64,000 bases of DNA from NCBI RefSeq assembly GCF_002105195.1, contig NZ_MUHU01000001.1:1-64000 (forward strand). Direction: 5' to 3'. How positions within the stretch are numbered: position 1 is the stretch's first letter; each line of letters begins with the position of its first letter. This stretch comes from Derxia lacustris (GTDB lineage: Bacteria > Pseudomonadota > Gammaproteobacteria > Burkholderiales > Burkholderiaceae_E). Of the stretch, positions 2,235-12,226 are shown one piece after another. The translations under genes were made by a program, and so were the position numbers. The notes under the pieces were generated by a model. The model did not search any database, had not been told where the DNA came from, and saw only the letters and a program-made list of their open reading frames with translations.

Positions 2235-4361
2235 ATGTCGCCGCTCGCCCGCCTCGTCCCCTTCGTCCGGCGCCAGCTCGCCACGCTCGGCCATGACGGC
2301 CGCGCCACGCTGCTCCTGCTGCTGGCGGTCGCCGCCGTGGTCGTGCCGCATTTCGAACATCTGCCGGGCTGGGCGCTGGCGGTCACGCTCGGCGCCTTCG
2401 GCTGGAAATGCCGGCTGCTGGCGCTGCACCGTGCCGCGCCGCCGCGCCTGCTGCTGGCGCTGATCGTCGGCGCCATCGCGCTCGGCACCTGGCGCAGCTA
2501 CGGCAGCCTGTTCGGCCGCGATGCCGGCGTGACCCTGCTGGTCATGCTCATGTGCCTCAAGCTGCTGGAAATGCAGGCGCGGCGCGACAGCTTCGTGGTG
2601 GCCTATCTCGGCTTCTTCCTGGCCGCCACCGGCTTCCTGTTCTCGCAGAGCATTCCGGCCGCCGCCTGCGTGCTGCTGGCGCTGCTGCTGCTGCTGGCGG
2701 CGATGGTCGCCGGCCAGCTCGGTGCCGCCGACCCCGGCGCCGCCGAGCCGCAGGACGGCGCCGGCGCCACCGGCCTGCGGCTGGCCGGCGCCACCGGGCT
2801 CAGGCTGATGGCCTGGTCGCTGCCGCTGGCGGCGCTGTTCTTCCTGCTGTTTCCGCGCATTCCGGGGCCGCTGTGGAACCTGCCCAACGATGCCGGCGGC
2901 GCCCACACCGGCCTGAGCGACAGCATGGCGCCGGGCGATCTGAGCGATCTGGCCGAATCGGGCGCGATGGCATTCCGCGCCCGCTTTGCCGCCAGCGCGC
3001 CGGCGCAGGGCCAGCTGTACTGGCGCGCCCTGGTCATGGGCGGCTTCGACGGCCGCAGCTGGCGACCGTGGCACATGCCGGCCGGCGCCGAGGCCGGCGA
3101 CGGCCCGTCCGAGCCGGTGCAGGCGCTGTCGGCGCCGCTGCAATACGAGCTGATCGCCGAGCCGAGCGGCGACCGCTGGCTGTTCGCGCTCGACGGGCCG
3201 CTCGCGCTCGGCCCCGACACCCGGCCCACCGAAGGCGCCACCTGGCAGGCGCGGCGCGGGCTGCGCGACCGCACCGTGCTGCACGGCAGTTCGGCGCTCG
3301 ACTACCGGCTCGGCGCTGCCGCCGGCACCGGCGACGGCCCGGTGGCGCGACGCGGCTGGCTGCAACTGCCGGCCGGCTTCAATCCGCGCACGCTCGACTA
3401 CGGTCGCCGCCTGCGCGCCGATTACACGGACGACCGCGCCCTGATCGACGCGGTGCTCAGCCGGTTCCGGCGCGACGCCTACCGCTACACGCTGCAACCG
3501 CCACGCCTCGGCCGCGACTCGGTCGATGAATTCCTGTTCGATACCCGCGCCGGCTTCTGCGAACACTACGCCTCGGCGTTCGCGGTGCTGATGCGCGCGG
3601 CCGGCATTCCGGCGCGCGTGGTGGCCGGCTACCAGGGCGGCGAAGTCAATCCGGTCGACGGCTGGATCGAGGTGCGCCAGAGCGATGCCCATGCCTGGAC
3701 CGAGGTCTGGCTCGGCCGCGACGCCGGCTGGGTGCGCATCGACCCGACCGCGGCGGTCGCGCCCGAGCGCATCGAGCGCGGCCTCAATCAGGCGCTGCCG
3801 GCGCTCGGCATCGACCGGCTGGCCCGGCTCGCACGCGGCACCGACGGCCCGCAGCTGTGGCGCGCGCTGCGGCATCGCTGGAATGCGATCGAGAACACCT
3901 GGAATCTGGCGGTGCTGCGCTACGACAGCGAGCAGCAGCGCAGCCTGTTCGAGCGCCTGGGCCTGGGCGCGCCCGACATGCAGACGCTGCTCGTCGGCTG
4001 CATGGCAGCGCTCGGGCTGGCCAGCGCGGCGCTCGGCGGCAGCCTGCTGTGGCAGGCGCTGCGCCGGCCGCGCCCCGACCGGCTGACGCGGCTGGCGATG
4101 CGCTTCGAAGCCAGACTGGCGCATGCCGGCTGCGTGCGCGCACCGCACGAGCCGCCGGCCGCCTTCGCGCGCCGCGCCGTCGCCGCGCTGGCCGCCGACG
4201 CCGCCGCGCCGGCCGATGCGCGCGTACCGGACGCCGCCGATCAGGCGCGCCGCATCTTCGAAGCGCTGATCGGCATGCGCTATCGTCGGCCGCCGTCCCC
4301 CGCCGAACTGGAAGTGCTGCAACGATGGATCGCCGAATTCAAGCCGCGCTCGCCGCGCTGA
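2235..4361 (+). CDS. tgpA: TgpA-type transglutaminase-like membrane protein (DUF3488)
   Basis: 708-residue inner membrane protein. Several hydrophobic segments fill the first 210 residues and a further one lies near 585-605; between them is a periplasmic transglutaminase-like domain. A plausible catalytic triad is visible: Cys442 in RAGFCEHYASAF, His486 in DAHAWTEVWL and Asp503 in WVRIDPTAA. The architecture matches the Pseudomonas TgpA family (DUF3488 plus transglutaminase core). It is third in the MoxR/DUF58 operon, and its 3' end overlaps the mltB-like gene by 37 bases. The acyl acceptor substrate is unknown for this family. Confidence 0.88.
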   Translation: MSPLARLVPFVRRQLATLGHDGRATLLLLLAVAAVVVPHFEHLPGWALAVTLGAFGWKCRLLALHRAAPPRLLLALIVGAIALGTWRSYGSLFGRDAGVTLLVMLMCLKLLEMQARRDSFVVAYLGFFLAATGFLFSQSIPAAACVLLALLLLLAAMVAGQLGAADPGAAEPQDGAGATGLRLAGATGLRLMAWSLPLAALFFLLFPRIPGPLWNLPNDAGGAHTGLSDSMAPGDLSDLAESGAMAFRARFAASAPAQGQLYWRALVMGGFDGRSWRPWHMPAGAEAGDGPSEPVQALSAPLQYELIAEPSGDRWLFALDGPLALGPDTRPTEGATWQARRGLRDRTVLHGSSALDYRLGAAAGTGDGPVARRGWLQLPAGFNPRTLDYGRRLRADYTDDRALIDAVLSRFRRDAYRYTLQPPRLGRDSVDEFLFDTRAGFCEHYASAFAVLMRAAGIPARVVAGYQGGEVNPVDGWIEVRQSDAHAWTEVWLGRDAGWVRIDPTAAVAPERIERGLNQALPALGIDRLARLARGTDGPQLWRALRHRWNAIENTWNLAVLRYDSEQQRSLFERLGLGAPDMQTLLVGCMAALGLASAALGGSLLWQALRRPRPDRLTRLAMRFEARLAHAGCVRAPHEPPAAFARRAVAALAADAAAPADARVPDAADQARRIFEALIGMRYRRPPSPAELEVLQRWIAEFKPRSPR

Positions 4362-5644
4362 CCGCCGCCACCGCCCTCGCCGCCTGCGCGAGCCGCATCC
4401 CGCTCTATCCCGAAGACGGCGCCGCGCCGGCCCGCAGCGGCAGCGCCGCCACGCCGGCCGCGCCCGCCCCGGCCGCGGCACCGCCCGCGCCGGCACCCGC
4501 GGAAGCCCCCGTCGTGGCGGTCACCACCCGGCCGATCGTGGTCGGGCCCATGGGCAGCGCCGATCTGGCCACGCCGGCCGTGCCCGGCAGCTATGCGCGG
4601 CGCGCCGACATCGCCGCCTGGGCCGATGAATTCGCCGCGCGCGCGCCGATCGACCGCGCGCTGGTGCAATCGGCGCTCGACCGCATCGAGCCGCAGCCGC
4701 GCGTGCGCCGGCTGATCCTGCCGCCGGCCACGCCGCAGCAGAAGAACTGGACCGCCTACCGCGCCCGCTTCCTCGACACGGTGCGGATACGCGCCGGCGC
4801 CGACTTCTGGGCCGCCAATGCCGACGCCCTGGCGCGCGCCGAGCGCGACTACGGCGTGCCGGCGGCGGTCATCGTGGCGGTGGCCGGCGTCGAGACCGTC
4901 TACGGCCGCAACCAGGGCGACTTCCGCACCGCCGACACGCTCGCCACCCTCGCCTTCGACTGGCCGGCCGAGGCGCCGCGCGACCGCTCGGCCTATTTCC
5001 GCGAGCAGCTCGAACAGCTTCTGCTGCTGGCGCGCGACTACGGCAGCCAGGTGCTCGACTGGCGCGGCAGCTATGCCGGCGCGCTCGGCATTCCGCAATT
5101 CATGCCGGGCAGCCTGCGCGACTTTGCGGTGGACTACGACGCCGACGGCCGCATCGACCTGAGCGGCAGCCCGGCCGACGCCATCGGCAGCATCGCGCGC
5201 TATCTGTCGGCGCACGGCTGGCAGGCCGGCCTGCCGATCTGGCTGCCGGCGCGCCCCGGCAACAGCCCCGAGCAATGGATCGCCCACGACCTGGAAGCGC
5301 GCTGGACCGCCGATGCGCTGGCCGAGGCCGGCGTGACGGTGCAGGGCAGCGCGCCGCCCGATCTGCTGTTCGGCCTGGTCGACCTGACCGCGCCGGCCGC
5401 GCCGACCGAATGGCGCGCCGGCACGCGCAACTTCTTCGCCATCACCCAGTACAACCGCAGCTTCTTCTATGCGGCGGCGGTGGCCGATCTGGCAGCGGCG
5501 GTGAGCGCGGCGCGCAATCAGCCGGCCGCCGCCGCGCTGCCGGTCAATCCGGCCGCGCCGCGCGTGGGCAGCGGCACGCCGCGCCCGGCGCCGGGCACGC
5601 TGCGCATCGGCGACAGCGGCAAGCCGTCCACCGGCACGCGCTGA
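4325..5644 (+). CDS. mltB: MltB-type lytic murein transglycosylase, lipoprotein
   Basis: 439-residue predicted outer membrane lipoprotein: the signal ends in the lipobox LAAC (Cys21) and is followed by an Ala/Pro-rich linker to about residue 62. The SLT_2/MltB domain contains AVAGVETVYGRNQGDFRT with catalytic Glu190 and the GALGIPQFMPGSLRDFAVDYD segment. It cleaves the beta-1,4 MurNAc-GlcNAc bond of peptidoglycan to give 1,6-anhydro ends. The ATG at 4325 lies inside the end of tgpA in another frame; it is chosen because it gives an intact lipoprotein signal. A Pro/Ala-rich tail of about 60 residues follows the catalytic domain. Confidence 0.9.
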   Translation: MDRRIQAALAALTAATALAACASRIPLYPEDGAAPARSGSAATPAAPAPAAAPPAPAPAEAPVVAVTTRPIVVGPMGSADLATPAVPGSYARRADIAAWADEFAARAPIDRALVQSALDRIEPQPRVRRLILPPATPQQKNWTAYRARFLDTVRIRAGADFWAANADALARAERDYGVPAAVIVAVAGVETVYGRNQGDFRTADTLATLAFDWPAEAPRDRSAYFREQLEQLLLLARDYGSQVLDWRGSYAGALGIPQFMPGSLRDFAVDYDADGRIDLSGSPADAIGSIARYLSAHGWQAGLPIWLPARPGNSPEQWIAHDLEARWTADALAEAGVTVQGSAPPDLLFGLVDLTAPAAPTEWRAGTRNFFAITQYNRSFFYAAAVADLAAAVSAARNQPAAAALPVNPAAPRVGSGTPRPAPGTLRIGDSGKPSTGTR

Positions 5645-5654
5645 GCGCCGGCGT

Positions 5655-6389
5655 TCAGCCCGCGCCGGTCGCGGTGCCGGGCTCGATCACCGCCAGCACC
5701 GGCAGATGGTCGGACGCGATCCGCGCCAGCCGGCTGCGATGCGCCGCCACCCGCACCAGCAGCGGCGCCGGCCGCACCCAGATGCGGTCGAGCGCCAGCA
5801 GCGGCCAGCGCGCCGGAAAGCTGCGCGGCGCCGGCGCCGGCGCGAACACCCGCTGCAACCAGCGCAGCGGCCGGCCCCACAGCCACCATTCGTTCAGGTC
5901 GCCGAGCAGCACCGTGGTTTCGCGCGCGGCCACGTCGAATGCGCTGGCGCCGGCCGCGTCAATGCGGCTCAGCTCGGCCAGCAGCCGGCGCACCTGGGCC
6001 CGGCGCTCGGCCGGGTCGAGGCCGAGATGCGTCGCGATCACCCGCAGCGGCCGGCCCGGCGCATCGAGCGTGACGACGATGGCGCCGCGCGGCTCGCGGC
6101 CCGGCACGCTCAGGTCGATCAGCCGGCGGCTGGTGACCGGATAGCGGCTGAGCAGCCCGTTGCCGTAGTCGCCCGGGCCGCGCAGCAGCGTCGGCCCGGC
6201 TACCGCATGCATGCCGCTGCGCTCGGCCAGCCAGGCCAGCATGTCGAAGCCGGTGCGGTCCGACTCCACCTCCTGCAGCGCGATCACGTCGGCGCGCAGT
6301 TCGCGCAGCACGTCGGCGATGCGGTTGGGCACGAAATGCCCGTCGGCGCCGACGCCGCCATGCAGATTCCAGGTCGCCACCCGGATCAC
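5655..6389 (-). CDS. Endonuclease/exonuclease/phosphatase family protein
   Basis: 244-residue EEP-fold hydrolase with the conserved blocks RVATWNLHGG (N-terminus), ALQEVESDRTG (metal-binding Glu), LLGDLNEWW and the terminal ASDHLPVLAVIE, so a metal-dependent phosphodiesterase. The substrate could be nucleic acid or a phospholipid head group. The start is a GTG that overlaps the stop of the upstream phospholipase D gene (GTGA), which argues for translational coupling and a shared role. No signal peptide is visible, so it should act in the cytoplasm. Confidence 0.85.
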   Translation of the reverse strand: MIRVATWNLHGGVGADGHFVPNRIADVLRELRADVIALQEVESDRTGFDMLAWLAERSGMHAVAGPTLLRGPGDYGNGLLSRYPVTSRRLIDLSVPGREPRGAIVVTLDAPGRPLRVIATHLGLDPAERRAQVRRLLAELSRIDAAGASAFDVAARETTVLLGDLNEWWLWGRPLRWLQRVFAPAPAPRSFPARWPLLALDRIWVRPAPLLVRVAAHRSRLARIASDHLPVLAVIEPGTATGAG

Positions 6390-8662
6390 GCGCCAGCCCG
6401 GTCGCGGCGCCGGCCGATCCAGCCGCGCACCAGCACCGCCGCCAGCACGCACAGCGCCACCAGGCCGCCGAGCAGCGCAAAGCTGGCCCAGCCGGGCGTG
6501 CGGATCGCGGCCGCCACCCGGTCGACGAACACGGTGGTGAATGCGATGCCCGGCGCCATGCCGAGCGCGGTGCCGGCCAGAAAATCGCGCAGCCGCACCT
6601 GGGCCGCGCCGGCCACCAGATTGACGATGGAGAACGGCGCGACCGGCAGCACGCGCAGCAGCACCATCGCCGGCAGGCCGCGCCGTGCCAGCCGCAGCGC
6701 CAGCCGCTGCATGCGCGGCCCGCCCCAGCGCCGCAGCGCGCGCCGGCCCGCGAGCCGGCCGATCCACCAGCTGACGGCGGCGCTGGCCAGCGCGCCGGCC
6801 AGCGCGTAAAGCCCGCCCTGCCAGGGCCCGAACACGATGCCGGTCACGCCGACCAGCAGCATCACCGGCATGACCACCAGACCGGCCAGCACATAGCAGC
6901 CGACCACCGCCAGTGGCGACAGCGGCAGCGCATCGAGCCGTTCGCCCAGGCGCACCAGCTCGCCCAGGTCGAGCAGCTCGCGCAACGGCGTATAGCGCCA
7001 GGCCATCGCCAGCGCCGCCAGCGCGACGGCGATCAGCGTCCAGGCGGCGATGCGCTCGCGCATCGGGCGGCGCTGGCCGGCGCGCGGCAGCAGCTCGGTC
7101 ATGAGCAGCTCGGTCGCGGCCGGGCGCTCGGGGTCGATGACGAAGTTGGCGTCGGGCAGCAGCCGGTCGATCTCGGGCGCGACGCTCAGGTCGAGCGGCA
7201 CCAGGCTGCGCTGGCCGGGCGCGCCGGCGCAGTCGGCCGCCGCGCCGGCGACGCTCTCGACCGGCGCCGCCGGCGCGCGCAGCGCATCGATGGCGGCATT
7301 GAGCCGGCCGTGCTCGCGCAGGGCCGCGTCGACCTCGGCCGGCGCCCGGCCCAGATGCTCGCCGAGCAGCCGCGCGCGCAGGGCGGCGATGGCCGCGCGC
7401 ACCCGCGGCTCGCCACCCGAGGCGATGGCGAGATTGCATTCGCTGTCGAAGCCCATCGAGCGGTTGCTGAGGTTGGCCGAGCCGACGGTGACGAAGTCGT
7501 CGTCGACGACCATCAGCTTGCTGTGCACATTCAGGCAGCGGCTGCCGTCGGGCGTTTCGCCGGGCAGTTGCGGGCACCAGGCGCGGTAGCGGTCGGCGCC
7601 GTCGGCGCCGCGCAGCCGCGCATCGATGCGGCCGCGCAGCACGCCGAGCGTGGTCTCCTCCAGCCAGCCGCTCTGGCGCCGCGGCAGCACCAGCGCGATG
7701 TCGGGCGCGGCCGGTGCGGCCAGGCGCGCGGCCAGCGCCTCGGCCATGGCGGCGGAGCTGAGGTACTGGTTCTCGATGTAGATGGCGTGGCGCGCGGCGC
7801 CGATGGCATCGGCCAGCAGTGCGCGCACTTCGCCGACCGCCGCATAGCCCTCGAAGCCGGGCTCGGTGCGCGCGATGCCGACCGGCACGTCGGTGAGGTC
7901 GGGCCGCAGGCCGGCGGGCCAGGGGTCGGCGCCGGTCGCCGCTGTCGCCGCTGCCGCTGATGGGGCTGTGCCGGGACGCGCCCCGGCGGGCGGGCGCAGG
8001 CCGGGCCGGCCGCTGGCGCGCAGCCAGCGTTCGGCGCACAGCTCGCCGAGCGCGGCGGCGGCGGCGCCGTCGACCGCCATCTGCACGTCGTGGAACGGCG
8101 CATAGGGCTTGCCGTCGGGATCGACGCGGCCCGGGTCGGCCGCCGCATGGGCCGGCGTGTCCCAGCGGCAGCGCGTCAGGTCGAGCCCGCCGACGAAGGC
8201 GATGGCGCCGTCCACCACCACCACCTTCTGATGCTGCGAGGCGCCGACCGGATGGCAGCCGTCGAGCTGGAACTGCATGCGCCGGTGGGTGCGCCAGCCC
8301 AGCCGCAGCGGCGACAGCCATTCGCGTTCGAGCGCGAACAGCATCGCGTAATCCCAGCTCAGCACCTGGGCGCGCAGGCCCGGCCGGGCGCGCACCAGCG
8401 CATCGAGCAGCTCGGCCAGCGGCGCCGGCCAGCCGTCGTCGCCGCCGTCGCGGCGCAGCTGCACGCGGCTGTCGATGTCCCAGCCGACGATCTGGATGCT
8501 GTGCCGGGCCTGGATGAGCGCCGCGCGCAAGGCCGAGAAATACGCCGCGCCGTCGACCAGGAAGGCGACGCGCGCGGCCTGCTCCACGCGCCAGCAATTG
8601 CGGCCGGGCTGGAGCAGATGGGCGGCATCGGCCGCAGGGTGGGAAGGACGGTCGTCAGGCAT
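6386..8662 (-). CDS. Phospholipase D-like / VTT (DedA-type) fusion protein
   Basis: 758 residues. The N-terminal two-thirds is a phospholipase D superfamily domain with two HKD motifs: HQKVVVVD (His144, Lys146, Asp151) and HSKLMVVD (His380, Lys382, Asp387), the second followed by SANLSNRSMG. The C-terminal part (about 535-750) has several membrane helices and a VTT/TVP38-type domain with GIVFGPWQGGLYALAGA and LRVLPVAPFSIVNLVAG. The first domain resembles cardiolipin synthases and phosphatidyl transferases; the second resembles TMEM64/DedA lipid-handling proteins. A role in phospholipid synthesis or remodelling with lipid flipping is inferred. The downstream EEP gene overlaps it. Confidence 0.88.
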   Translation of the reverse strand: MPDDRPSHPAADAAHLLQPGRNCWRVEQAARVAFLVDGAAYFSALRAALIQARHSIQIVGWDIDSRVQLRRDGGDDGWPAPLAELLDALVRARPGLRAQVLSWDYAMLFALEREWLSPLRLGWRTHRRMQFQLDGCHPVGASQHQKVVVVDGAIAFVGGLDLTRCRWDTPAHAAADPGRVDPDGKPYAPFHDVQMAVDGAAAAALGELCAERWLRASGRPGLRPPAGARPGTAPSAAAATAATGADPWPAGLRPDLTDVPVGIARTEPGFEGYAAVGEVRALLADAIGAARHAIYIENQYLSSAAMAEALAARLAAPAAPDIALVLPRRQSGWLEETTLGVLRGRIDARLRGADGADRYRAWCPQLPGETPDGSRCLNVHSKLMVVDDDFVTVGSANLSNRSMGFDSECNLAIASGGEPRVRAAIAALRARLLGEHLGRAPAEVDAALREHGRLNAAIDALRAPAAPVESVAGAAADCAGAPGQRSLVPLDLSVAPEIDRLLPDANFVIDPERPAATELLMTELLPRAGQRRPMRERIAAWTLIAVALAALAMAWRYTPLRELLDLGELVRLGERLDALPLSPLAVVGCYVLAGLVVMPVMLLVGVTGIVFGPWQGGLYALAGALASAAVSWWIGRLAGRRALRRWGGPRMQRLALRLARRGLPAMVLLRVLPVAPFSIVNLVAGAAQVRLRDFLAGTALGMAPGIAFTTVFVDRVAAAIRTPGWASFALLGGLVALCVLAAVLVRGWIGRRRDRAGA

Positions 8663-8896: not shown

Positions 8897-9952
8897 TCAG
8901 GCGGGCGGATTCAGCAGCCGCCAGTAGCTCGGCGTGTTGGCCAGCGGCGGCGCCTCGCCGAGCACCGCGAAGCAGTCGTTGAAGTATTCGATCCAGGCAT
9001 CGGCATGCAGGGTGCCGAGCTGCTTGTCGCGCAGCGTCTGCACCAGGCCCCAGCGGTTGCCGGCCGGCCGCAGCGAGCCGGCGTTGTAGGCACAGGCCAC
9101 CAGCGGCGGATCGAAGTTGGTCGGGCCGGCGCGGCGCAGCGCCTGCTGGCGCAGATAGAGCGTGCCGGCGCGGATCGAGGTTTCGGGGTCGAGCAGCGCC
9201 TGCCGGTCGAGCCTGGGGTCGCCGACGGCGGCGCGCGCGGTGCTGATGAGCGTCTGCATCAGGCCGGGCGAGACGCGGTCGGGCGTGGTGGCGTCGCTGA
9301 CGAAGCCGGGCTCCTCGCGGCAGCAGTCGGCGCGGCCGCCGCTTTCGGTGCAGATGGTGGCGACGATGATCTCGACCGGCACGCCGTAGGCGGCGGCGCA
9401 CTTTTGCAGCGCGGCGCCGTAGGCGGTCCAGACCTTGCGCGCGGTGTTCGGCGCGCCGCCGGTGCGCGGCAGCCGCTCGGCGCCGGCTTCGCGCACCCGC
9501 ACGCCATCGGCGGCCAGCCGCCATTGCAGCGTGCCGCCGCCGAGCGGGCTGGCATGCCAGTCGGCGATGCGGCGCAGATAGGCGTCGAGATTGGCGATCC
9601 AGCCCGGCGCCGGGGCGCTGGCGGCCGGCGCGGCGGCCGGCGCCGGCGCATCTGCGGCGCCCGGCGTGCGCACATCGGCGAGCGCGCGGACGGCGGCGGC
9701 AGCCGGCGCGTCGTCGACGATGGCGGCGCTGTCGGGATTGAGCCGGCTCCAGGTGTCGCGGCCGATCACGCCGTCGGCTTCGAGCTTCTCGGCCTGCTGA
9801 AAGTCGCGCACCGCATCGCGGGTGGCGGGGCCGTAGACGCCGTCGGCGCCGCAACGCAGCAGGCCGCGCCGGATCAGCGCCTGCTGGGCCGCGCGCACCT
9901 GTTCGCCGCGCATGAGCGGCAGGCTGAAGCGCAGGTCGGAGTCGAGATTCAT
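8897..9952 (-). CDS. Peptidoglycan-binding lytic transglycosylase-like protein
   Basis: 351 residues with three parts: an N-terminal peptidoglycan-binding domain (about 10-72, with GVYGPATRDAVRDFQQ), an Ala/Pro linker (80-118) and a C-terminal SLT-type domain (about 175-345). The latter has TICTESGGRAD with candidate catalytic Glu203, then SPGLMQTLISTAR and ACAYNAGSLRP, the usual three transglycosylase blocks. There is no signal peptide, which is unusual for a housekeeping enzyme and typical of phage endolysins. The ATG at 9952 is chosen over an upstream one at 10024 because it follows the lipoprotein stop by one base and starts the domain directly. It is last in a three-gene cassette. Confidence 0.8.
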   Translation of the reverse strand: MNLDSDLRFSLPLMRGEQVRAAQQALIRRGLLRCGADGVYGPATRDAVRDFQQAEKLEADGVIGRDTWSRLNPDSAAIVDDAPAAAAVRALADVRTPGAADAPAPAAAPAASAPAPGWIANLDAYLRRIADWHASPLGGGTLQWRLAADGVRVREAGAERLPRTGGAPNTARKVWTAYGAALQKCAAAYGVPVEIIVATICTESGGRADCCREEPGFVSDATTPDRVSPGLMQTLISTARAAVGDPRLDRQALLDPETSIRAGTLYLRQQALRRAGPTNFDPPLVACAYNAGSLRPAGNRWGLVQTLRDKQLGTLHADAWIEYFNDCFAVLGEAPPLANTPSYWRLLNPPA

Positions 9953-9953
9953 C

Positions 9954-10655
9954 TCAGCCTCCGCAGTTGGCGAGGGTGGCGCGGCGGGCACGCGCATCGG
10001 CGAGCAGGCGCGCGAACTGTTCACCGTAGCTGCCGGCGGACTGGCCGGCGAGCGCGGCCTGCTCGGCCTGGCGCGCGGCGGCGCAGCGCGCTACGTCGTC
10101 ACCCTGGCCCGGGCGCGCCAGCAGCAGCGCGGCGCGGCCCTGCCACAGCGCGCGCTCGGCCGGGCCGGCCTGCGCGGCCTCGGCCTGGGCGGCGCGGGCG
10201 GCGCTGGCAGCAGCCGGAAAGCTGGTGGCGATCTCGGCGCGGCAGTACTGGGCCTGGGCGCCGAGCGCGGCCAGCTTGGTGCGGCCGGCGGCGTCGATGC
10301 CGCTGTCGCCACCGCCGCGGGCCTGGGCCAGATCGGCGGCGGCGGCGGCCAGTCGGCCGTCGAGCGCGGCGGCCTGCTCGCCGCCAGCCGGACAGGCCGC
10401 GCCGGGCGCGCGCGTCGCGAGTGCCATGTGCAGCAGCGCCTCGCCGTGCAGCGCATGCAGCCGGCCGCAGCCGGGCCGGGCCGGCTCGCTGGTGCAGGCA
10501 CCGGTCACGGCGTCGCCGGCGATCGCGTCCTGCCGACCGCTACTAGCCAGCCGCTCCCATTGCTCGAGCTGGGCCACCACCGGATTGAGGGCGGGCTTGC
10601 AGCCGGCCAGCGCCAGCAGCACGGCCGCAGCCGTGAAAACACTTCGGGCATTCAT
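9954..10655 (-). CDS. Predicted lipoprotein of unknown function
   Basis: 233 residues starting with a lipoprotein signal: Lys/Arg-poor start MNARS, hydrophobic core, and lipobox LAGC at the cleavage site. The mature part is Ala-rich and predicted largely helical, with six further Cys residues, including one near the C-terminus (LANCGG). No family is recognised. The start ATG overlaps the stop of the membrane protein gene (TGATG) and the stop lies one base before the transglycosylase start, so the three genes must be one transcript. A structural or spanin-like role with the neighbouring transglycosylase is possible but speculative. Confidence 0.7.
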   Translation of the reverse strand: MNARSVFTAAAVLLALAGCKPALNPVVAQLEQWERLASSGRQDAIAGDAVTGACTSEPARPGCGRLHALHGEALLHMALATRAPGAACPAGGEQAAALDGRLAAAAADLAQARGGGDSGIDAAGRTKLAALGAQAQYCRAEIATSFPAAASAARAAQAEAAQAGPAERALWQGRAALLLARPGQGDDVARCAAARQAEQAALAGQSAGSYGEQFARLLADARARRATLANCGG

Positions 10656-12226
10656 CAAGGCAGCACCTCGCCAATCAGCGGAAGGGGATCGATGCGGGCG
10701 GCGCGCAGCTCGCCCGTGAGCAGCACCAGCGCCTCGAAGGCGCCGCGCTGCTCGGCACTGCCCGGCGCATTGCCCAGCCGGGCGTCGAACACGGCATTGA
10801 CTTCGTCGGGCGTGGGCTGGGCCGCGCCAGCCAGACTGGCCGGCAGACGCGCCGCGACGCTGCCGATCTGGCTCGTGTCGATGTCGGCGCGGCCGCGCTC
10901 GCCGAGCAGCAGGCCGCGAAATTCCATCAGTCCGTCGGTGGCCTCGCCGCGACTGGCAAAGCGGCCGTCGCCGCCCCAGCGCTGCCACAGCCGGTCGCTC
11001 GCGTCCTCGCGCAGCGCCAGATCGAGCAGCTCGCCGGCGAACTGCGGCTGGCTGCGGATTTCCTCGGCGAAGGCGCGCGCAAAGATCGGCGCGCGCTCCA
11101 GGCACAGCCCGGCGCTGGCGGCGGTGAGATAGCCCGGATCGATCAGCTGCGGGTTGTAGGGCGCGTCGAGCACCCGCGCGACCCAGCGCTGGTACTGCTC
11201 GGAACCGAGCTGCCAGCCGAGCCCGAGCACCATCAGCACGCCCGCCGCCGGCCCGAGCGTGCCGACCAGCGGCAACGCGCCGGCGGCCTTCTCGATCAGG
11301 CCGGGCAGCGGCGACTTGCCGAGCAGCTCGCGCGCGGCGGCGGCCACCTCGTGCAGCGTGTTTTCGTCCACGCCGCCGGAAATGGCCTGGGCCGCGCCGA
11401 GCACGCTGTTGGCCTTGTCGAGCGCGTCCCTGGCGCCGGCCGGCAGCAGGCCGGGCAGCGTGCCGTCGAGCAGGCCGATCAGGCTGCTCGCGGCCTTGGC
11501 ATGGCGTTGCAGCCGGTCCAGCTCGAGCGCGAACCGGCCGCCGCGCGCCAGTGCCTCCTTGTCGGCGGTGGCCTGATCGGCGGCGCTGGTGGCCTGGGCC
11601 ACCACCTGACCCAGCGCGCCGGCCTGGGCGCGCAACTGGTCGGCCTCGCTGCGCGCGGCATCGGCCAGCTTGACGCTGGCGCGCGCGGTCTGGGCATCGG
11701 CAGTGGCGCTGCGGGTGCCGAAGTAATAGGCGAACACGCCGGTGACGATGCCGTTGATGTAGCCGGCAATGCTCTCGTTGAGATCGAGCGCGCGGCTGAA
11801 CACCAGGATGGGCAGCCCGACCACGCCGACGATGAGCGCGATCACCGCGCGCACCGTGCCCTCGGGCAGGGCCATCGGCAAATCCTTGAGCGCCGCGAGC
11901 TTGTCGGCCGGCATGTCGCGGATGGCCGAGAAATAGCGCGCGCTCAGCCACCACAGATACGCGGCAAACGCGAGCCCCACGCCAAAGATGAGCGCCGCCA
12001 CCGCAAAGGTGCGCAGCCCGCCCGAGCCGCCGAGCGCCGCGCCGATGCCGCCCGCGCCGCCCATGCCGCCCAGCACGAAATGGTTGAGCAGCCCCAGCAG
12101 CAGCAGCACGACCAGCCCGTAGGCCAGCAGCCGCGCCGGCCCGGCCAGCGCCTGCCACCAGACCGGCGGCCCGGCCGCGACCGTGACGACTGCCAGCTCA
12201 CCTGTCGACGTGTTCTCGTCCGCCAT
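10655..12226 (-). CDS. Polytopic membrane protein of unknown function
   Basis: 523 residues, not recognised. Hydrophobic segments lie at about 31-53, 71-95, 124-145, 152-170 and 319-340. Between the fourth and fifth is a heptad-like, Ala-rich probable coiled coil (about 175-245). The segment LPEGTVRAVIALIVG followed by SIAGYINGIVTGVFAYYFG is a compact pair of helices of a type seen in small holin-like proteins, but that likeness is only by eye. The C-terminal 180 residues look soluble and helical. It is the first gene of the cassette with the lipoprotein and transglycosylase, so it may anchor or export them. Confidence 0.7.
   Translation of the reverse strand: MADENTSTGELAVVTVAAGPPVWWQALAGPARLLAYGLVVLLLLGLLNHFVLGGMGGAGGIGAALGGSGGLRTFAVAALIFGVGLAFAAYLWWLSARYFSAIRDMPADKLAALKDLPMALPEGTVRAVIALIVGVVGLPILVFSRALDLNESIAGYINGIVTGVFAYYFGTRSATADAQTARASVKLADAARSEADQLRAQAGALGQVVAQATSAADQATADKEALARGGRFALELDRLQRHAKAASSLIGLLDGTLPGLLPAGARDALDKANSVLGAAQAISGGVDENTLHEVAAAARELLGKSPLPGLIEKAAGALPLVGTLGPAAGVLMVLGLGWQLGSEQYQRWVARVLDAPYNPQLIDPGYLTAASAGLCLERAPIFARAFAEEIRSQPQFAGELLDLALREDASDRLWQRWGGDGRFASRGEATDGLMEFRGLLLGERGRADIDTSQIGSVAARLPASLAGAAQPTPDEVNAVFDARLGNAPGSAEQRGAFEALVLLTGELRAARIDPLPLIGEVLP

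Follow-up and report, generated by a model that had tools for sequence, protein, structure and literature searches.

A conserved membrane protein, lipoprotein and signal-less transglycosylase trio of Derxia lacustris as a putative holin/endolysin-type cassette

We describe a conserved trio of genes located in a 64,000-nucleotide stretch of the Derxia lacustris genome (positions 1 to 64,000 of contig NZ_MUHU01000001.1, hereafter the window), which encodes a membrane protein (MP), a lipoprotein (LP) and a peptidoglycan-binding lytic transglycosylase lacking a signal peptide (SLT). The trio is a real unit whose arrangement is not due to chance, and with moderate confidence we read it as a cellular cassette of the holin/endolysin type, with phage ancestry and working like a type 10 secretion system (T10SS). 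We favour this reading because the trio is conserved, with genes that almost always overlap, in distant lineages; because a hairpin of MP is homologous to a phage protein encoded beside a CHAP endolysin gene and, more weakly, to the holins of family PF11351, of which three MP homologues have sub-threshold matches; because the enzyme family is found on phage contigs, once near a terminase and a portal and once fused behind a holin-like region; because the catalytic module has been swapped with the peptidoglycan-binding domain (PGBD) and MP kept, and the catalytic glutamate is retained; and because of the place of a Nitrospira trio and muramidase before the genes of an extracellular contractile injection system (eCIS), the parallel with the lysis cassette of Afp, and the definition of the T10SS core.

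Distribution and origin of the trio

The transglycosylase alignment was scanned against 84,980 species genomes, yielding 48 loci. With home-made hidden Markov models, the MP and LP genes were detected beside that of the enzyme in Gammaproteobacteria, Nitrospirota, one KSB1 metagenome-assembled genome (MAG) and many Acetobacteraceae and Elioraea. When the window and Paracoccus are counted in, MP and the hydrolase are encoded on one strand in 36 loci, and a lipobox protein starts at the MP stop in 34 of them; the overlap between the two genes is of 4 bp in 30 of these 34 complete trios and of 1 bp in the window. Many of the counted loci belong to closely related Roseomonas MAGs, and the independent lineages are thus fewer than the loci. 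A lipobox likewise occurs in 33 homologous loci. Distant relatives of MP were found in two gammaproteobacterial genomes, on two Paracoccus megaplasmids and in one further Burkholderiales genome (G700); each lies in the same trio, except in G700, where MP is accompanied by a PGBD hydrolase and LP is missing. Matches in three other genomes (G306, G468, G777) were set aside as partial or unrelated. No family of Pfam, NCBIfam or PHROGs matched MP or LP above its cut-off, and the trio is unnamed as far as these libraries show.

The window trio is flanked upstream by the chemotaxis genes cheB/cheD/cheR and downstream by a PLD-VTT gene and an endonuclease/exonuclease/phosphatase gene. There are no phage genes among these flanking genes, and the trio is encoded outside a prophage. 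The original prediction, made from the letters of the window, had described three packed minus-strand genes, two of them of no recognised family, a Cys-containing lipoprotein (its LAGC lipobox is perfect), a transglycosylase without signal peptide and surroundings devoid of phage genes; all of these observations hold, including every open reading frame and junction. It had named a lack of co-occurrence of the three genes elsewhere as an outcome that would refute it, and the neighbourhoods found in distant lineages show the opposite.

MP was not found in 60 relatives of the source genome, of which one belongs to the same genus. In the enzyme tree the window SLT groups with Acetobacteraceae/Roseomonadaceae (support 100/99), and the window MP shares 41-46% identity with most MPs of these families and 18-22% with those of Gammaproteobacteria, Nitrospirota and KSB1. 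This grouping, these identities and the absence from relatives suggest that the trio was acquired horizontally. The source genome is a 58-contig assembly with an estimated contamination of 6.8%, but the GC content at third codon positions of the trio matches that of the neighbouring genes.

Phage relatives of the membrane protein and of the enzyme

The AlphaFold model of MP, analysed with DSSP, comprises four predicted membrane helices, a helix of 74 residues and a C-terminal half made up of helices only (pLDDT 75.5 overall, low in the membrane part and mostly 80-94 in the C-terminal half). Several homologues appear to carry a cleavable signal peptide. From the distribution of loop charges, the long helix is predicted on the cytoplasmic side, and the positive-inside rule makes a cytoplasmic location probable for the C-terminal half as well, a placement tempered by a hydrophobic stretch at residues 318-336. 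The best-conserved part of MP is a hairpin containing two motifs, PxGLPxGTVR and (F/Y)YFGxR, which read P-x-x-x-P-E-G-T-V-R ... Y-Y-F-G-T-R in the window. A tblastn search of MP against phage records gave no match, and the MP alignment, scanned against viral contigs, had a single one (L119; 33% identity, tblastn E 6e-7 among candidate stretches). L119 is of phage origin and carries head, tail and endolysin genes, and the hairpin relative is a 94-residue protein encoded 157 bp after a CHAP endolysin gene. A follow-up viral scan, with a query alignment headed by this protein, returned 21 loci, L119 itself among them. Three others encode hairpins of 60 to 78 residues having both motifs, found via the YFGxR motif only; the other viral loci read are three-transmembrane (3TM) holins. 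The genes of the two scanned ones that pass PF11351 overlap that of a GH108 endolysin, and the gene of a third one, which stays under the PF11351 cut-off, overlaps that of an M15 peptidase. At the three loci with small hairpins (L122:4992-5416, L123:4992-5407, L124:4149-4661), the hairpin gene is directly followed by that of a second small membrane protein, possibly forming a holin/antiholin-like pair.

Profile comparison with HHalign gave 98.6% for the MP hairpin against the four small phage hairpins and 89% against the phage 3TM holins (E 2e-6 for one comparison), the phage set having been chosen by motif; none of 100 block-shuffled controls scored as high as either. An earlier comparison, in which the PF11351 proteins formed a mixed set, reached only 22%, the higher value having been obtained after the motif-bearing phage proteins were found. 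Homology to the small phage hairpins is solid, and the relation to the 3TM holins, partly selected by the shared motif, is suggestive. In the latter (PF11351, GTA_holin_3TM), the last hairpin carries an (A/V)-F-G-F-Y-F-G-S-R motif and the genes lie beside those of peptidoglycan hydrolases, as for MP. However, MP has in addition P-x-G-L-P-x-G-T-V-R and a C-terminal half of ~350 residues, and it falls below the Pfam cut-off: three homologues match PF11351 at E 0.009-0.04 with at most 16.9 bits, short of the gathering cut-off of 24.8 bits, and the window MP has no PF11351 match at E<=1.

The window SLT consists of a PGBD at its very N-terminus and an SLT catalytic domain. No hydrophobic signal peptide was found in it or in those homologues of which the N-terminus was examined, and the predicted catalytic residue E203 is present in 53 of 53 homologues. 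The catalytic domain is exchangeable: in Paracoccus, SLT is replaced by Amidase_2 plus GH19 whereas the PGBD and MP are retained, and the G700 hydrolase combines a PGBD with a C-terminal domain that has no Pfam match and is lysozyme-like in sequence appearance. Relatives of the SLT domain are found on seven viral contigs. One of these (L019) belongs to a phage, as judged by its terminase and portal; in another (L025), the domain follows, within one fusion protein, a membrane region that ends in GFYFGSS and is holin-like by eye, for which Pfam made no call. In the tree, phage and cellular sequences are intermingled, with long branches. This SLT domain is also encoded, together with an additional C-terminal one, at about 8800-12300 in L040, L042, L062 and L044 (Anaerolineae/Chloroflexi, Geodermatophilus), where a conserved gene of unassigned role lies upstream and MP is missing; at L041:2685-5713 (Ignavibacteriaceae), an opposite-strand LysM-SLT gene has as neighbours the genes for a Tle1-like phospholipase and for a membrane protein of the Paracoccus type.

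Five cysteines of LP are invariant in a 20-row alignment (C19 of the lipobox, C54, C63, C191 and C231) and two nearly so (C74, C104), a pattern that fits a periplasmic lipoprotein with disulfides. Its model is confident (pLDDT 93), with about ten helices in a predicted TPR-like arrangement, and the top VIA-align match is the TPR domain of sNASP (Z 14.3, 159 residues at 3.9 A). Since TPR folds are common and helical repeats easily reach a high Z, this match indicates a docking-type fold and not a function. LP was searched for on viral contigs and not found there, and an o-spanin reading was rejected in view of its size, its TPR-like helices and the lack of an i-spanin gene in the array.

The logic of a phage lysis module, which the original prediction had recognised in the trio, therefore stands in part: the phage relatives of the enzyme and of the hairpin support it, and the role of a spanin-like lipoprotein has to be abandoned. 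MP is holin-like in its hairpin alone, within a much larger protein; both lysis and pore formation are inferences. Structure prediction, proposed there as a check, was informative for LP, whereas the MP model had no meaningful Foldseek match (best E 0.70 in the PDB and 0.063 among viral models). A phage-like hairpin and enzyme family would also be found in a decaying prophage lysis cassette without current function. Yet the frames are intact, the catalytic glutamate, the lipobox cysteine and the gene order are kept across distant lineages, the adjoining genes are of chemotaxis and PLD/nuclease type, and LP was not found on viral contigs; such conservation largely refutes this explanation, which we regard as very improbable.

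Release cassette, scaffold or effector set

The core of a T10SS is a holin with a wall-degrading enzyme, the hydrolase being signal-less; spanins are optional and are absent from the Salmonella systems (PMC13284979). Lytic release has been demonstrated in Yersinia entomophaga (PMC10847048). Like the trio, the T10SS of Serratia (ChiWXYZ), Y. entomophaga (YenLC) and Salmonella (ChiH/ChiP) are non-prophage operons combining a holin-like protein with a signal-less hydrolase (PMC10847048, PMC13284979). The trio shares the signal-less hydrolase and the non-prophage location, it has no spanins, and its counterpart of the holin is a protein whose hairpin is related to phage holin-like proteins by sequence only. 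It differs in the length of MP, about 450-630 residues against a small T10SS holin, in having a TPR-like lipoprotein instead of spanins, and in its hydrolase, in most cases a lytic transglycosylase of PGBD-SLT type. With so large an MP, the C-terminal half of this protein and a lipoprotein of TPR-like type, the trio would be a distinct T10SS-like variant. By analogy it would work like a T10SS, of which it is a candidate member.

In the mechanism that we propose, MP would reside in the inner membrane, where its holin-like hairpin would open or license a path across; the large helical C-terminal half, probably cytoplasmic, may time this opening or hold partners. The signal-less PGBD-SLT enzyme would remain cytoplasmic until given passage by MP, and would then cut peptidoglycan. 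LP would be anchored at the periplasmic face, probably as a docking site for the enzyme or as a connection between MP and the outer membrane. The outcome would be the release of a large, already folded cargo, via lysis of some cells or local leakage, this cargo being plausibly an eCIS in at least some lineages.

The trio is linked to contractile systems in some lineages but not in others. In a Nitrospira MAG (G803), the genes for MP, LP, SLT, a muramidase, Pvc16_N, sheath and tubes follow each other in one direction (Pvc16_N and muramidase identified by Pfam, sheath and tube by reading), so that the trio and muramidase directly precede the eCIS genes. This is similar to the Afp eCIS cluster of Serratia, in which a lysis cassette of endopeptidase, holin and lysozyme genes lies upstream (PMC12961389): membrane protein and wall hydrolase genes directly precede the eCIS in both cases, but the protein families differ, as judged from the published description, and most trio genomes have no such adjacency in view. 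Pvc16_N was found in 4 of 4 trio-bearing Nitrospirota (two of which are sister lineages, and the MAGs are incomplete), in the genome of the window (two clusters) and in a gammaproteobacterium (G804), against a background of 30 of 369 genomes in the class of the window and 18 of 148 in Nitrospirota. In G804, the trio converges on a type VI secretion system (T6SS) cluster and the Pvc16_N gene lies elsewhere on the same contig. Pvc16_N was not found in G112, G300, G700, the KSB1 MAG (G802) or 13 of the 15 Acetobacteraceae/Elioraea carriers tested. A T6SS is present in 7 of 32 genomes tested, and neither an eCIS nor a T6SS marker was detected in G300, the KSB1 MAG or 10 of those 15 carriers, with the proviso of MAG incompleteness. 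Dependence of all trios on an eCIS was rejected, since most Acetobacteraceae carriers have none.

Several points weigh against a T10SS-like cassette. MP is four to five times the size of typical holins, of which it resembles only the hairpin; the fit to 3TM holins is modest, and its YFGSR half was partly selected, given that this motif was used to find those proteins; in Paracoccus, the homology of MP lies mainly in the C-terminal half, and the membrane region is of another type, lacking the hairpin motif; and LP is no spanin. Nor can one cargo account for every trio, because ten carriers have neither contractile system, and the two eCIS clusters and the T6SS of the window's own genome are located on other contigs.

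Two other explanations account for part of these data. MP and LP could form a trans-envelope scaffold recruiting a cytoplasmic or leaked SLT, with neither pore nor lysis, and open the wall locally for the building of a large machine (T6SS, eCIS docking or other). The TPR-like LP with its conserved cysteines, typical of a protein-docking part, the large helical C-terminal half of MP, the position of the trio in G804 and the occurrence of T6SS among the genomes tested all speak for such a scaffold, which however explains neither the exit of a signal-less hydrolase nor the hairpin match to a phage protein encoded beside an endolysin and the enzyme family on phage contigs; we consider it unlikely. 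Alternatively, the PGBD hydrolase could be a T6SS or eCIS effector, with LP (or MP) as its immunity protein. A signal-less hydrolase adjoining a lipoprotein gene is reminiscent of T6SS peptidoglycan hydrolase effectors and their periplasmic immunity proteins, and T6SS-type lipase families occur near some members: Tle1-like (L033, L041), Lipase_3 (G112) and patatin (Paracoccus). An immunity protein normally corresponds to the catalytic domain of its effector, whereas the LP family is constant as the catalytic domain changes from SLT to amidase plus GH19. The LP gene also precedes that of the enzyme, and the trio occurs in genomes devoid of T6SS, including the carriers, G300 and the KSB1 MAG that have no eCIS marker either, which makes an effector set less credible still than a scaffold. 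The T10SS-like cassette remains the reading that we retain.

The array in the window and significance of the trio

The features of the array are listed in Table 1. The LP start codon (ATG 10655-10653) has one base in common with the MP stop codon (TGA), and LP ends at 9954, one base before the SLT start codon at 9952. A second in-frame ATG further upstream would lengthen SLT and create no signal peptide; the start at 9952 was retained because homologues begin at that position and a GGAGG motif precedes it.

Table 1. Positions and supporting evidence of the trio genes and their features in the window
Feature	Position	Strand	Evidence
MP, 523-aa membrane protein	12226-10655	minus	ORF call, AlphaFold model, homologues
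LP, 233-aa lipoprotein, predicted TPR-like	10655-9954	minus	ORF call, alignment, model, fold matches
SLT, 351-aa signal-less peptidoglycan-binding lytic transglycosylase	9952-8897	minus	ORF call, Pfam
Holin-like hairpin of MP, residues 115-172	11711..11884	minus	tblastn, HHalign
Long helix of MP, residues 183-256, coiled-coil candidate	11459..11680	minus	DSSP on AlphaFold model
Lipobox LAGC of LP, residues 16-19	10599..10610	minus	sequence
PG_binding_1 domain of SLT, residues 15-71	9740..9910	minus	Pfam 1e-17
SLT catalytic domain, residues 183-294	9071..9406	minus	Pfam 7.4e-12
Predicted catalytic Glu203 of SLT	9346-9344	minus	homologue alignment
Shine-Dalgarno GGAGG before ATG 9952	9958..9962	minus	sequence

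Downstream on the same strand (5655-8662, minus) are the gene of the PLD-like protein, which has a C-terminal VTT domain, and then the endonuclease/exonuclease/phosphatase gene. On the plus strand at 4334-5644, ~3 kb from the trio, lies the gene of an MltB-type lytic transglycosylase that matches SLT_2 (1.9e-81) and appears to be a lipoprotein. Elsewhere in the genome, the two Pvc16_N genes (G000:C57:552854-553375 and G000:C12:264794-265243) and the T6SS sheath gene (G000:C5:69245-70144) have no trio homologue in the surrounding stretches fetched. In another genome, a holin-like PF11351 match with a frame broken by one TAG (G129:C29:19789-21616) lies ~1.1 kb from a Pvc16_N gene, and other eCIS clusters may hold holin-type genes too.

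To our knowledge, the exit of eCIS and of other large cytoplasmic assemblies is poorly understood beyond a few insect-pathogen systems. A conserved module, the parts of which can be named and knocked out, offers a testable exit route in environmental bacteria. We tentatively suggest, as a possibility rather than an expectation, that the trio represents a new and widespread class of release system, in which a holin hairpin within a large regulated inner-membrane protein is combined with a TPR-like lipoprotein and an interchangeable hydrolase, and which serves eCIS exit in some lineages. If true, type 10 secretion would extend beyond small holins, and a holin hairpin would have been recruited into a large, probably regulated protein.

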